In this document: one piece after another, positions 27,784 through 32,727 of the stretch
Layout: each line of letters opens with the position of its first letter
Numbering within the stretch: the stretch's first letter is position 1
NCBI GenBank assembly: GCA_945904015.1
Contig: CAMDPK010000010.1
Coordinates: 1-64,000, forward strand
Direction: 5' to 3'
DNA: 64,000 bases
Source: Candidatus Kuenenia stuttgartensis
GTDB lineage: Bacteria; Planctomycetota; Planctomycetia; Planctomycetales; Planctomycetaceae
Made by a program: the position numbers and the translations under genes
Notes under the pieces: generated by a model
What the model saw: the letters and a program-made list of their open reading frames with translations, nothing else
Databases searched by the model: none
What the model was told of the DNA's origin: nothing

Positions 27784-28491
27784 TCAATTCTGGTATCCCT
27801 GCTCTCCGTACTCGTCGATTCCCAGGCGATATCGCAGTTCTCCGAACTGCCTCGAGAACTCGTCACTGGAGGAGTGAACGTGCTCGGCTTCAGTGATGAA
27901 CTTGATCTCGTCGTCCCGCTCCAAACCGTGCTGAGCCAGCACCGACTCGAATTCGCTCAAATCCTGGCCGTAAACAATTAACAGCTTGTGCTCGTCGAAC
28001 TGCACTTCGACCGGAATGCGCGGGTTCAATACGGCGATTCCGGTGCAGCCGTCGTTCAGCAGCATTTCCTCGAAGTCGTAGAACATGCTCTTGAGGATCG
28101 GCAGGTCGATGTGTTCGCGGTACAGGTCTTCGTGTCGGCCGTTGTGTTTCTCGTGGCTGGTTTCCAGCACCACATCGACTTCGCCGCCGATGGGATCGAG
28201 TAAATCGACAAACAGGTCGAACAAGTCCTCACGTGACGCCGACGCCATCAACACTGGGATATCCACTCCCGTACGCTCGTCGGTGTATTTGTCGTGACGG
28301 AAGCCGGCTCGCGGAATGATTTGCAGATCGAATGACGGCCGGACCGCATCGGTCAGCGCGTAGCCATCATAGGCCGCGACCTTCAAATGCTTTTCGAGCT
28401 GCTCTTCCGAGAGGTTCTCGAAACTGCTTTGGCCGCGACTTTGCTGGCCGTCTCGAAAGGTGTTCTTGATGAATTTTTTGAGGAAGCCCAT
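27784..28491 (-). CDS. Conserved hypothetical cytoplasmic protein
   Basis: A 235-residue acidic protein with no signal or membrane segment. N-terminal 'MGFLKKFIKNTFRDG' is an amphipathic helix; the rest has 'LPILKSMFYDFEEMLLNDGCTGIAVLNPRIPVEVQFDEHKLLIVYGQDLSEFESVLAQHGL', which looks like an alpha/beta domain, but I recognise no family. The ATG at 28491 is chosen over a longer frame that adds 14 residues. A strong terminator follows, so it is a single-gene unit. The upstream region, to the riboswitch at 28965, has no gene. Confidence 0.7.
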   Translation of the reverse strand: MGFLKKFIKNTFRDGQQSRGQSSFENLSEEQLEKHLKVAAYDGYALTDAVRPSFDLQIIPRAGFRHDKYTDERTGVDIPVLMASASREDLFDLFVDLLDPIGGEVDVVLETSHEKHNGRHEDLYREHIDLPILKSMFYDFEEMLLNDGCTGIAVLNPRIPVEVQFDEHKLLIVYGQDLSEFESVLAQHGLERDDEIKFITEAEHVHSSSDEFSRQFGELRYRLGIDEYGEQGYQN

Positions 28492-28964
28492 CGTGTTTTT
28501 CCATGGGACGGCAGACGTGGTTTGGCGGGACAACCAACTCTAGCACGAGTTCCCAGAGGCACTCTCCGGGCTTGAGACAACCTCTTCAAAATCAACCCCA
28601 CGCGCATGAACAACCGGGGCAAAGGGGGTTTGGCGAAACCTTGTCAGGAAGCGAAAAGGTCCGACAAACGGAAACTTTCCGAATTCTGCCACCCGCACTG
28701 CCCCCGCAGAATCGGCACGTCCGTCACGACTCAGAATCGCCCGTGCCAAAGTCCGTCAAGGCGCTCCAGAAACTCGCATGCGACTGAAGTCGGACGTGAC
28801 GTCACTGTGGCGCACGCGGCTCGCGTGCGTCACGTCCTACCCAACGGTTTGCTTCCCGAAAATGCTAACGGCAGATTTCAACGCTCACGAAACATCCGAC
28901 CGTAACTGCCGATGCCGACGCCACCTGAATGCGGCCTCTTGTGTGCCGACTTCGCATCAGTAAA
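28492..28964. other. Gene-free spacer before the riboswitch
   Basis: About 470 bp without a convincing gene. It holds a 12-bp inverted repeat with one mismatch (28807-28818/28822-28833, GTGGCGCACGCG...). It should contain the promoters of the divergent 235-aa gene and of the riboswitch transcript, but I cannot place them with confidence. Confidence 0.5.
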
Positions 28965-29136
28965 ATCTCCGCCCAAGCAGCCGAATCGGACGCGAGGCGT
29001 CCGAACGGGGGAACCAACGAGCCGATCAGCGGCTCACGGGGCGTAGGTCGTTCAACGCGAAATCCTCAGAAATCGCCGAGAAAACCGGGGTACTTTCAAG
29101 CCCTAGCCCGACAGCTAACCTCGTAGGCGGGTCGAG
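28965..29136 (+). promoter_or_regulatory. c-di-AMP riboswitch (ydaO-yuaA class)
   Basis: The leader matches the conserved core of the cyclic-di-AMP riboswitch in order: GCCGAATC (28980-28987), a 6-bp hairpin GGACGC-GAG-GCGTCC (28988-29002), GGGGGAACC (29007-29015), a hairpin GAGCCG/CGGCTC (29019-29035), GGGGC-TAGGTC, GGGGTACTTTCAAGCCC (29087-29103), and the 3' signature CCCGACAGCTAACCTCGTAGGC (29107-29128, conserved part CCGACAGCTAACCTCGTAGG). The helix closing the aptamer would pair GCC at 28980 with GGC at 29126. Past it, GTCGAGA (29131-29137) can pair with TCTCGAC at about 29185-29191, a possible expression platform. No run of T's follows, so the control mode is unclear. The next gene on this strand is the SPFH protein, about 285 nt downstream. 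Confidence 0.9.
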
Positions 29137-29420
29137 ACATGTGCTCTCGGCCCCATTTGAAAGGGCACTCGCGTCACGAGATCTCTCGACGTTGAGCCGG
29201 CCCGTTCGGGTTACGAGGCGCTCCGCTGGAGAGTTCTGAGAATCGACCGGTCACAACCGGGTCGCATCTGGTTTCGCTGTCCACATCGCGACAGGATGTC
29301 CGCCACTTTCCCGTTCTTCGATTCAAAATCGGAGACAAGGAAAGTGCTTCTGCTGCGAACCAGTGCGCCAAAGAGTGACAATAATTCGATGATCCTCCGC
29401 GCGTGCCCAAGGAGACTTCC

Positions 29421-31655
29421 ATGTCTGCTGTGATTGGTGTGCTGAACTTTGTGTCGATGTCGTCGATCCTCGCAGCCGATTCGGCACCGGTGGGCCTCAT
29501 GCGGCTGCTGACCTGGGTCGTCGGGCCGCTGTTCGGCCTGCTATTTGTCGCGTGGCTGGTGCTGCGGTACATCCCGAACGATGCGGTGGGCATCGTCGAG
29601 AAACTCTGGTCGCTGGGCGGTTCGGTTCCCGAAGGCCGGATCATGGCGTCTGGTGGCGAGGCGGGGTTTCACTCCGACTTGCTGCGCGGTGGCATTCACT
29701 TCGGACTGTGGCGCTGGCAGTACGTCATTCACAAGATGCGGCTGGTGACGATTCCGCAGGGGAAGATCGGCTACGTCTACGCTCGCGACGGCGAGCCGTT
29801 GCCTCCCAGCCAAACGCTCGCGAGAGTCGTCGCCAGCAATCACTTTCAGGACGCGCGAGCGTTTCTCGGTGAACGCGGACGTGACACTCGCGGCCAGCGC
29901 GGTCGGCAGCGAGCGATCCTGCGCGAAGGCGTGTACGCCATCAATCCCGCGCTGTTCATCGTCATCACGGAGACCGCGGTGTTCTCGCTGCGCAACTTGC
30001 AAACGGCTCAGGAACGAGCGGTCGTGGACTCGTGGCAAGCCGAGCTGAAGGAAATCGAGGGCTTCGACCCGGTCGTGGTCGGCGGCGGCATTAAAGTGCC
30101 AGACCCCGTCAATCCCGATCAGACGCTGATCGTGGACAGCATCGGCATCGTGACTGTGCATGACGGTCTCTCGCTGCTGCCGGGCGAGATCATCGCGCCG
30201 ACCGTCGGAGCCGATCCCACTGATCCGCACTACCACAACAACTTCCAAGTTCCGGAAGAGTTTCTCGCGGCCGGCGGTCAGCGCGGCCGGCAACACGCTG
30301 TGCTGACGGACGGCACGTACTTCATCAACCGTTGGTTCGCGACCGTCCGCATGATTCCGAAAACGATCGTGCCGATCGGACACGTCGGCGTCGTCGTCAG
30401 CTACTACGGCCAGCAAGGCCGCGATTTGTCCGGCACGGCGTTCCGGCATGGCGAACGTGTCGAAGAGGGCGAACGCGGCGTCTGGGAGAAGGCACTCGGC
30501 CCCGGCAAGTACGCCTTCAACTCCTACGCCGGCAGCATCATCTTGGTCCCGACGACCAACTTCGTGCTGCACTGGATCACCGGAAAATCTGAGTCGCATC
30601 GGTACGACGAAGGCCTGATGTCGATCGACCTCGTGACGAAAGACGCCTACGAACCGATGCTGCCGCTGTCGGTCGTCGTTCACATCGACTACCAGAAAGC
30701 TCCCAGCGTCATTCAGCGGTTTGGCGACGTGAAAAAACTCATCACACAGACGCTCGATCCGATGCTCAGCGCGTATTTCCGAGACGTGGCACATCGCCGC
30801 ACGATGCTGGAACTGTTGCAACAGCGCGACGCGATTCAAGTTGAGGCTCGCGAAGAACTCCGTTCGCGATTTGGACAGTTTGACATGCAGTGCGTGGACG
30901 TGTTGATCGGCAAGCCGGATACGTCAGACAAAGGTGGTTCGATCGACACGCTGCTGGAGCAGTTGCGGATGCGGCAATTGTCGGTCGAGCAACTCGAAAC
31001 CTACGACCGTCAGCGAGCCGCCGCCGACAAGCAGCGGGCGCTGAGCGAGGCGCAAGCTCAAGCCGCGATGCAGCCGAAGCTGACTCAAGCCCGCGTGCAA
31101 ATCCAGATCGCCGAAAGCGAAGCCGAAGCCGACCTCGCGCGCGCTCGCAAGGACGCGGAGAAGACGATCGTCGCCGCCGATGCCGAACTGGCGAAGTCTC
31201 GCCGTCGCGCCGAACAAACAGTGGTCATCGCCGAAGCCGAAAGCCAGGAACGCATCCTTGCCGGCAAGGGCGAAGCTCAAAAGGTGATGCAGATCGGACT
31301 CTCCGAAGCCTCGGTGCTGCTGCGCAAGGTCGCGTCCTACGGCGACCCACGTTTGTACGCGCTGGCGTTGGTCTCCGAGCAATTGTCTCACAGCACTCAA
31401 CCGCTGGTCCCCGAACGCCTCTTCATGGCGGGCGGCTCCGACGGTGCGAGCACCGGCAGTCAAACCGGCCAAGGCCTGATGGGCCTGCTCATCAGCCTGC
31501 TGGTCGCCGAGAAGTCCGGCTTCGAAATGTCGAACACCACGGAGTTGAACGAACTCAAGCAATACTCCGACCGCATGGTCCAAGAGGCGATGCAGTCAAT
31601 GTCACCGACATCCGCATCTACCGTGTCGTCCGAGACTGAGTCCGTGCTAACGTGA
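29421..31655 (+). CDS. SPFH/flotillin-like membrane protein
   Basis: A 744-residue protein. There is an N-terminal hydrophobic region with a membrane helix at about 35-50 ('VVGPLFGLLFVAWLVLRYIP'), an SPFH/band-7 domain with 'IPQGKIGYVYARDGEPL' and a further beta-rich part ('VPIGHVGVVVSYYGQQG'), then a long Glu/Ala-rich coiled coil (about 540-640, 'QIQIAESEAEADLARARKDAEK') as in flotillins. A final hydrophobic stretch 'GLMGLLISLLVAEKSGF' is present near 700. Flotillins organise membrane microdomains. AAGGAG lies 6 nt before the ATG at 29421, which sets the start over an upstream in-frame ATG. Expression is probably controlled by the c-di-AMP riboswitch upstream. A terminator-like stem follows. 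Confidence 0.88.
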   Translation: MSAVIGVLNFVSMSSILAADSAPVGLMRLLTWVVGPLFGLLFVAWLVLRYIPNDAVGIVEKLWSLGGSVPEGRIMASGGEAGFHSDLLRGGIHFGLWRWQYVIHKMRLVTIPQGKIGYVYARDGEPLPPSQTLARVVASNHFQDARAFLGERGRDTRGQRGRQRAILREGVYAINPALFIVITETAVFSLRNLQTAQERAVVDSWQAELKEIEGFDPVVVGGGIKVPDPVNPDQTLIVDSIGIVTVHDGLSLLPGEIIAPTVGADPTDPHYHNNFQVPEEFLAAGGQRGRQHAVLTDGTYFINRWFATVRMIPKTIVPIGHVGVVVSYYGQQGRDLSGTAFRHGERVEEGERGVWEKALGPGKYAFNSYAGSIILVPTTNFVLHWITGKSESHRYDEGLMSIDLVTKDAYEPMLPLSVVVHIDYQKAPSVIQRFGDVKKLITQTLDPMLSAYFRDVAHRRTMLELLQQRDAIQVEAREELRSRFGQFDMQCVDVLIGKPDTSDKGGSIDTLLEQLRMRQLSVEQLETYDRQRAAADKQRALSEAQAQAAMQPKLTQARVQIQIAESEAEADLARARKDAEKTIVAADAELAKSRRRAEQTVVIAEAESQERILAGKGEAQKVMQIGLSEASVLLRKVASYGDPRLYALALVSEQLSHSTQPLVPERLFMAGGSDGASTGSQTGQGLMGLLISLLVAEKSGFEMSNTTELNELKQYSDRMVQEAMQSMSPTSASTVSSETESVLT

Positions 31656-31677: not shown

Positions 31678-31710
31678 GCCCGTCACTTCGTTGGTGGCGG
31701 GCTTCTATTT
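31678..31710 (+). terminator. Probable terminator after the SPFH gene
   Basis: The 9-bp stem GCCCGTCAC/GTGGCGGGC (31678-31686/31694-31702, one wobble) has a 7-nt loop and is followed by TTCTATTT. It overlaps the end of the convergent propeller gene. Confidence 0.6.
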
Positions 31711-32727
31711 CTGCGTTGGCAAGACGATCACGCAGGGATCGAAGTCGTCTTCTTTGGAATTCAGTCCCGGTGTCGGCAGAAAGCTCTGCTTTTCTCGGTC
31801 GTAGAGATAGATGTCACGCTCACCCGCGCCACTCAGCCGTTCCGACACGAAGACCAAATAGCGACCGTCGGCAGTAAGCGACGGAGATTGCTCAGGGGCC
31901 AGCGAATTCAAGCCGGTGAGCGGCAGAAACTTTTTCTCCGACCGATCGTACAGATGAATGTCTCGCCCGCCCGCACCGCCGGGGCGGTCCGAGGACAGGG
32001 CCAGCAGCCGACCATCGCCGCTCAGCGAAGGCTGCAGGTCCATGTTTTTCGAGTTCATCCCCGGAAGAGCATCGACGGTCTTCTCGTGCAGATCGCACAA
32101 ATAGATGTCTGTCAAACCAACGCCGCCACGAGCATTCGAGACATAGGCCAAGAAGCGGCCATCGCCGCTGATGGCGGGCAGCCGGTCATCCAGAGTCGCG
32201 CTGATCGGCTTCGGCGAGTCGAGGAATTTCTTGGCGGTCAAGTCGTAGAGAAACAGTCCCCAGCGCGGACTGCCACCCGGCCGCGCCCACGCGCTGAAGA
32301 CCACCAAGGAGCCATCGCCGGAAAGAGTCGGGCTCATCTGGTGGACATTCGGAAAATCATTGATCGCCGGAAACGGGAGCAGCTTCTTCTCTCTGCGGTC
32401 ATAGACTTCGATGCGTCCGCCATCGGTCACTCCGTACTGCGCGGAGAACGCACAAAACCGGCCATCGCGGCTCAAGGAAGGGTGCATGTCCGCGCGAGTG
32501 AAGTTGATCCCCTTGGCGATCGATTCGATCGAGCCGACGAGTTGGCCGTTGCTCACTCCGTCGTGTTCGTAGAAGTAAACCACCGGATACGGCGGAGCAC
32601 GCCGTTCTCGCACGGAGGAAAAAGCCAGCAACAGTTTCGGGCCGGTCGGTTCTTGGACCGACTGCGCGAACGCGACGTCAACGCTGCTGACGATGATGAC
32701 CAGAAAGATAAGAGCACGACTCATCAT
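31705..32727 (-). CDS. Exported TolB/PD40-like beta-propeller protein
   Basis: A 340-residue protein with a signal peptide ('ALIFLVIIVSSVDVAFAQ'). The mature part has six repeats of the WD40-like/PD40 type: 'MHPSLSRDGRFCAFSA', 'MSPTLSGDGSLVVFSA', 'RLPAISGDGRFLAYVS', 'LQPSLSGDGRLLALSS', 'QSPSLTADGRYLVFVS' and a degenerate last one. Each is followed by 'DIYLYDR.EK.FLPL'. It is a likely periplasmic six-bladed propeller for binding proteins or ligands; the partner is unknown. A second ATG, one codon in, is equally possible. Confidence 0.85.
   Translation of the reverse strand: MMSRALIFLVIIVSSVDVAFAQSVQEPTGPKLLLAFSSVRERRAPPYPVVYFYEHDGVSNGQLVGSIESIAKGINFTRADMHPSLSRDGRFCAFSAQYGVTDGGRIEVYDRREKKLLPFPAINDFPNVHQMSPTLSGDGSLVVFSAWARPGGSPRWGLFLYDLTAKKFLDSPKPISATLDDRLPAISGDGRFLAYVSNARGGVGLTDIYLCDLHEKTVDALPGMNSKNMDLQPSLSGDGRLLALSSDRPGGAGGRDIHLYDRSEKKFLPLTGLNSLAPEQSPSLTADGRYLVFVSERLSGAGERDIYLYDREKQSFLPTPGLNSKEDDFDPCVIVLPTQK

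Follow-up and report, generated by a model that had tools for sequence, protein, structure and literature searches.

A predicted structural variant of the ydaO/yuaA c-di-AMP riboswitch upstream of a planctomycete gene encoding an SPFH-domain protein

Riboswitches of the ydaO/yuaA class (Rfam family RF00379) sense cyclic di-adenosine monophosphate (c-di-AMP), and those known so far switch expression OFF, either at the level of transcription (PMC6488665) or at that of translation (PMC9960051). The closest described systems are the leader of kimA (ydaO) in Bacillus, the kdpFABC riboswitch of Bacillus thuringiensis and the nlpC riboswitch of Corynebacterium glutamicum. Here, we analysed a stretch of 64 kb (hereafter ‘the window’) from a genome labelled Candidatus Kuenenia stuttgartensis (Planctomycetota, family Planctomycetaceae; contig CAMDPK010000010.1), in which a gene for an SPFH/Band_7 protein is preceded by a long leader. 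Judged by score, structure and covariation, this leader belongs to the ydaO/yuaA class, of which it is a planctomycete structural variant.

When the window was scanned against Rfam 15 with cmscan, the leader alone being re-scanned too, RF00379 matched positions 28969–29143 of the forward strand with 49.1 bits, for a gathering threshold of 38 (E = 2.2e-8, whole window against all of Rfam). No other Rfam match exceeded its threshold within the window, and a search of the whole genome (7.43 Mb) returned this single copy. An earlier note, made from the letters of the sequence, had proposed a c-di-AMP riboswitch at this place from the ordered conserved blocks of the class; these blocks were located (GCCGAATC at 28980 and CAGCTAACC at 29112), and the proposal stands on both the Rfam score and the covariation in relatives. 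All core helices lie within 28980–29128 (+), as borne out by counting pairs in 28 and in 40 relatives: P1 (28980–28982/29126–29128), P2 (28986–28992/28998–29004), P3 (29005–29010/29119–29124), an arm (29019–29024/29030–29035), a GGG/CCC helix (29039–29041/29107–29109) and a last stem (29088–29091/29100–29103).

The aptamer extends beyond the nested RF00379 model, which, as the relatives reveal, ends before the strand that closes a pseudoknot. This pseudoknot joins the loop CTTTCAA (29093–29099) to TTGAAAG (29157–29163), and between the 3′ strand of P1 and the 3′ strand of the pseudoknot stands an inserted hairpin (29129–29153; stem 29129–29137/29145–29153), all on the forward strand. Pairs were counted in two sets, namely 28 copies of the family, including two that are not SPFH-linked (G005 and G103), and the window with 39 copies from GTDB (n = 40). 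In the first set, 90.6% of cells were paired over the whole structure and both sides had changed in 26 of 48 pairs; the covariation score was 0.383, against 0.169 in shuffled and 0.07–0.13 in slid controls, the slide control somewhat favouring the structure because this was drawn from the window. The second set gave 92.4% of cells paired and a score of 0.365. For the pseudoknot itself, 96.9% of cells were paired in the 28 copies, with a change from U-A to A-U, and both sides had changed in four of the seven pairs in the 40 copies; for the inserted hairpin, both sides had changed in 8/9 and 6/8 pairs, respectively. Because this unmodelled hairpin separates P1 from the pseudoknot strand, the true aptamer ends near 29163, and the 3′ boundary set in the earlier note (29136) is too short, all the more as a further conserved hairpin reaches 29203. 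The insertion is common to most SPFH-linked copies, and is mostly lacking in copies linked to K+ transporters (G103 excepted) and in SPFH-linked copies of other families. In one family locus (L037, G059:C318), it has grown to several hairpins. Minimum free energy folding of the entire 472-nucleotide leader did not return the ydaO fold, and its result was left unused.

The SPFH gene (29421–31655, +) begins with an ATG at 29421, preceded by AAGGAG at 29409–29414, and no gene lies between it and the aptamer. It stands alone, since the gene upstream of the aptamer (27784–28533) is divergent and the gene that follows (31705–32727) is on the other strand. The predicted protein of 744 residues comprises an N-terminal transmembrane helix, beta domains, the SPFH domain and a long C-terminal helix, and matches Pfam Band_7 with 51.5 bits (cut-off 23.6). 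A search of the PDB with the sequence gave no useful match. An AlphaFold model built on a 68-row alignment, which replaced a 27-row model with a predicted local distance difference test score (pLDDT) of 56, reached a pLDDT of 73 and a predicted template-modelling score of 0.57, with the transmembrane helix at 22–47 and the long helix. Foldseek placed major vault protein and prohibitin at the top, with flotillin and HflK/C lower (E from 3e-8 to 1e-4), for TM-scores of only 0.11–0.18 by query length. The modelled fold supports a kinship with major vault protein, prohibitin and flotillin, and the protein may form a cage. Flotillins typically have about 400–500 residues and no N-terminal repeats. 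Accordingly, of the ‘SPFH/flotillin-like’ description given earlier, the SPFH part is borne out by the Band_7 score and the flotillin part is not, given the length of the protein, its transmembrane helix and beta domains, its vault-like N-terminal half and its best structural matches. Because this half resembles vault-protein repeats and the protein is no plain flotillin, its placement in membrane microdomains can only be conjectured. The match of the N-terminal half to the repeats of major vault protein would make the product of 29421–31655 a membrane-anchored, vault-like bacterial protein.

The association between aptamer and SPFH gene recurs well beyond the window. RF00379 was found in 42 of 170 genomes of the family and in 46 of 392 genomes sampled evenly over the phylum Planctomycetota. 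A tblastn search with the SPFH protein of the window detected an orthologue downstream on the same strand at 23 further family loci, that is, 24 family copies with the window, and three copies in other families also precede such genes (G370, 99.9 bits; G409, 84.5; G304, 76.2). At one locus (G139), the downstream protein starts SPFH-like and then breaks off; at three others (G059, G104, G146) the contig ends too early, an SPFH gene beginning at the edge of another contig in G059 and G146. Starting from the gene instead, SPFH relatives (E ≤ 1e-30) were present in 31 of the 170 family genomes. Among the 80 best relatives in GTDB, a set which overlaps the family set and whose members are all planctomycetes by title except one metagenome-assembled genome titled only ‘bacterium’, 45 had the aptamer core 100–531 nucleotides upstream on the same strand, and in none did it lie on the opposite strand or past the start of the gene; when 17 of the core-positive loci were re-scanned, RF00379 exceeded its threshold in 16. 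The forward strand called by the earlier note agrees with this orientation and with a conserved −10 box immediately 5′ of the aptamer. Among the carriers are Aeoliella straminimaris (order Pirellulales) as well as records titled Schlesneria, Planctomicrobium and Fimbriiglobus, so the placement upstream of SPFH genes is kept over several orders of the phylum, with a leader of only about 100 nucleotides in some relatives. In the phylum sample, two full-length SPFH relatives (G521 and G172) had no RF00379 match in the flank examined. In G145 and G139, two genomes where RF00379 occurs at an SPFH gene or at a fragment resembling one, a second, shorter SPFH paralogue of about 650 residues lacks the riboswitch (L131, G145:C286; L132, G139:C967).

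Elsewhere in the phylum, the aptamer is mostly found ahead of K+ transporter genes. Clustering of the 93 proteins readable downstream of RF00379 hits (surroundings of the hits were fetched, the window being additional) gave SPFH proteins as the largest group (28), followed by APC (24) and TrkH (20) proteins and a second APC-like group (5). Pfam identified AA_permease_2, TrkH and K_trans among ten downstream representatives; one member of the APC cluster matched Usp only, and the one member tested of the five-protein group had no hit. A function of the APC-cluster members in K+ transport is suggested by analogy with KimA. At individual loci across the phylum (L081, L102, L121 and others), RF00379 stands ahead of APC/KimA-like, TrkH and KUP transporter genes, and we found no paper describing a K+-transporter regulon under RF00379 in Planctomycetota. 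In one APC locus (L100, G247:C12:180800–180933), the Shine–Dalgarno sequence, with the ATG directly after it, seems to coincide with the 3′ strand of the pseudoknot (CGAGGAG); if true, this arrangement would be a compact translational switch.

The genome seems equipped for the ligand. It encodes one DAC protein of the DacZ_P+DAC type (82.5 bits; L002, G000:C19), the diadenylate cyclase for which the earlier note had advised a search, and one PgpH-like 7TM-7TMR_HD phosphodiesterase (65.8 bits), so that, by gene content, the host would make c-di-AMP. DacZ is known from archaea.

Taken as a whole, these data are best explained, with high probability in our judgement, by a ydaO/yuaA-class variant in which a c-di-AMP-locked pseudoknot and the hairpin behind it would turn SPFH expression OFF. 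Transcription would start just 5′ of P1, at a promoter-like element (28939–28966, +) composed of TTGTGT (28939–28944), a weak −35 match, a 16-nucleotide spacer and the conserved −10 box TAAAAT (28961–28966). Of 46 SPFH-linked copies, 31 have a hexamer matching the −10 consensus at five or more of six positions within 30 nucleotides 5′ of P1, whereas each 30-nucleotide window farther away holds one in 0–2 of 46. A sigma-70 consensus scan returned no promoter in the leader of the window. The RNA would then fold into the ydaO core, closed by the pseudoknot whose 3′ strand is carried beyond the extra hairpin, as the covariation indicates, and two c-di-AMP molecules, expected from class membership, would bind and lock it. 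The hairpin that follows (29163–29203, +; GGGC 29163–29166/GCCC 29200–29203, inner stem CGTC 29172–29175/GACG 29188–29191) shares its first G with the last base of the pseudoknot strand (29163) and is probably the expression platform. It was seen in the window and 28 relatives by a search requiring an outer stem starting with GG, and its inner stem varies in sequence yet pairs. This hairpin would either end transcription or keep ribosomes from reaching the SPFH start, and the SPFH protein would therefore be made when c-di-AMP is low, like the K+ importers under the same switch in the phylum, the direction being that of the class. Some relatives carry a U-run behind the hairpin, and terminator-like leaders are about twofold more frequent than expected (14 of 44 relatives against 6.5 in shuffles), so termination is possible rather than established.

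Several observations weigh against this explanation. Behind the hairpin, the window has a degraded U-run and no terminator that fits the consensus, and a consensus scan of its leader found only weak terminators. The stretch from hairpin to gene is long (approx. 215 nucleotides), leaving room for a second promoter, and it persists in a congener that has lost the switch (see below). Moreover, 30 of the 80 GTDB relatives have at least 400 nucleotides upstream without aptamer, for example in Singulisphaera, so that the link between aptamer and SPFH gene is not obligatory.

An ON switch formed by the same RNA is an alternative that we consider unlikely. Here, c-di-AMP would free the Shine–Dalgarno region from 29163–29173 and so raise SPFH expression: the segment CGCGCGTGCCC (29398–29408, +), immediately before the Shine–Dalgarno sequence, is complementary to 29163–29173, and the duplex energies of own partners beat those of swapped partners (permutation p = 0.006, kinship being ignored). 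However, the pairing is uneven over the family, with per-locus ranks from 2 to 21 of 24, and the studied members of the class turn expression off (PMC9960051, PMC6488665).

It is quite improbable that the riboswitch is genuine but the SPFH gene mainly read from a second promoter within 29203–29421, with little effect of the switch. In the congener G112, whose SPFH protein is 88% identical, the window segments 28535–28719 and 29203–29480 both align at 80%, while the 484 bases between them are replaced by about 90, so that promoter, aptamer and hairpin are gone whereas the SPFH gene and its flanks are kept; the survival of 29203–29421 there and the length of the leader would both fit such a promoter. 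Yet the consensus scan detected none of sigma-70 type in this stretch, the leader shrinks to about 100 nucleotides in some relatives, and the upstream placement is conserved over several orders.

That the inserted hairpin marks a variant with another ligand is very unlikely. An RF00379 score below that of the K+-linked copies and the insertion itself would be in keeping with this; however, the insertion lies outside the core, whose blocks (GGGGGAACC, GGGGCG and CCCGNCAGCTAACC) are conserved, SPFH-linked copies without insertion exist (99.9 and 84.5 bits), and a cyclase is present in the genome. As a candidate, a switch of ligand specificity was set aside on the unchanged core blocks. Finally, a chance structure or a decayed aptamer, for which a score just 11 bits above threshold and the single copy could be cited, is hardly credible, being contradicted by covariation and conserved placement.

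The conserved pairing of aptamer and SPFH gene in dozens of species suggests that the signal governing K+ uptake also controls a membrane scaffold. We would go further only tentatively, and with somewhat less than even confidence: a distinct c-di-AMP riboswitch variant, with an additional hairpin inside its pseudoknot, would subject an SPFH cage, vault-like and anchored in the membrane, to the control that also acts on K+ uptake, c-di-AMP thereby setting membrane architecture as well as turgor. Planctomycetota are known for their unusual membranes. In the open-access literature, we found no paper on a c-di-AMP riboswitch with an SPFH/flotillin target or in Planctomycetota; SPFH membrane scaffolds would thus be an added target class for c-di-AMP control, of which we found no description. 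This predicts a single signal common to the scaffold and the K+ importers; the structural variant, a hairpin inserted into the linker of the pseudoknot, lends itself to direct testing, for which cultured relatives such as A. straminimaris are at hand.

Compared with described systems, the locus resembles the Bacillus kimA (ydaO) leader in its core, its helix order, the pseudoknot between last loop and 3′ tail and the membrane-protein gene downstream, and differs from it in its SPFH target and its phylum; in the crystallised ydaO RNA, the P1 3′ strand and the pseudoknot strand lie about 4 nucleotides apart (PMC5393176), whereas here a hairpin of about 25 nucleotides is inserted between them. 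The B. thuringiensis kdpFABC riboswitch likewise combines an aptamer, a start codon reached only after a long leader and a K+-linked regulon, but its intrinsic terminator with U-tract was demonstrated experimentally (PMC6488665), while the corresponding U-run is degraded in the window. The C. glutamicum nlpC riboswitch, also of RF00379, appears to be translational rather than terminator-based, and serves a cell-wall peptidase in a different phylum (PMC9960051). As for the protein, prohibitin, flotillin, HflK/C and major vault protein share with it the Band_7 domain, the long C-terminal helix and the Foldseek matches; by contrast, the window encodes 744 residues with an N-terminal transmembrane helix and vault-like repeats, in a monocistronic unit.
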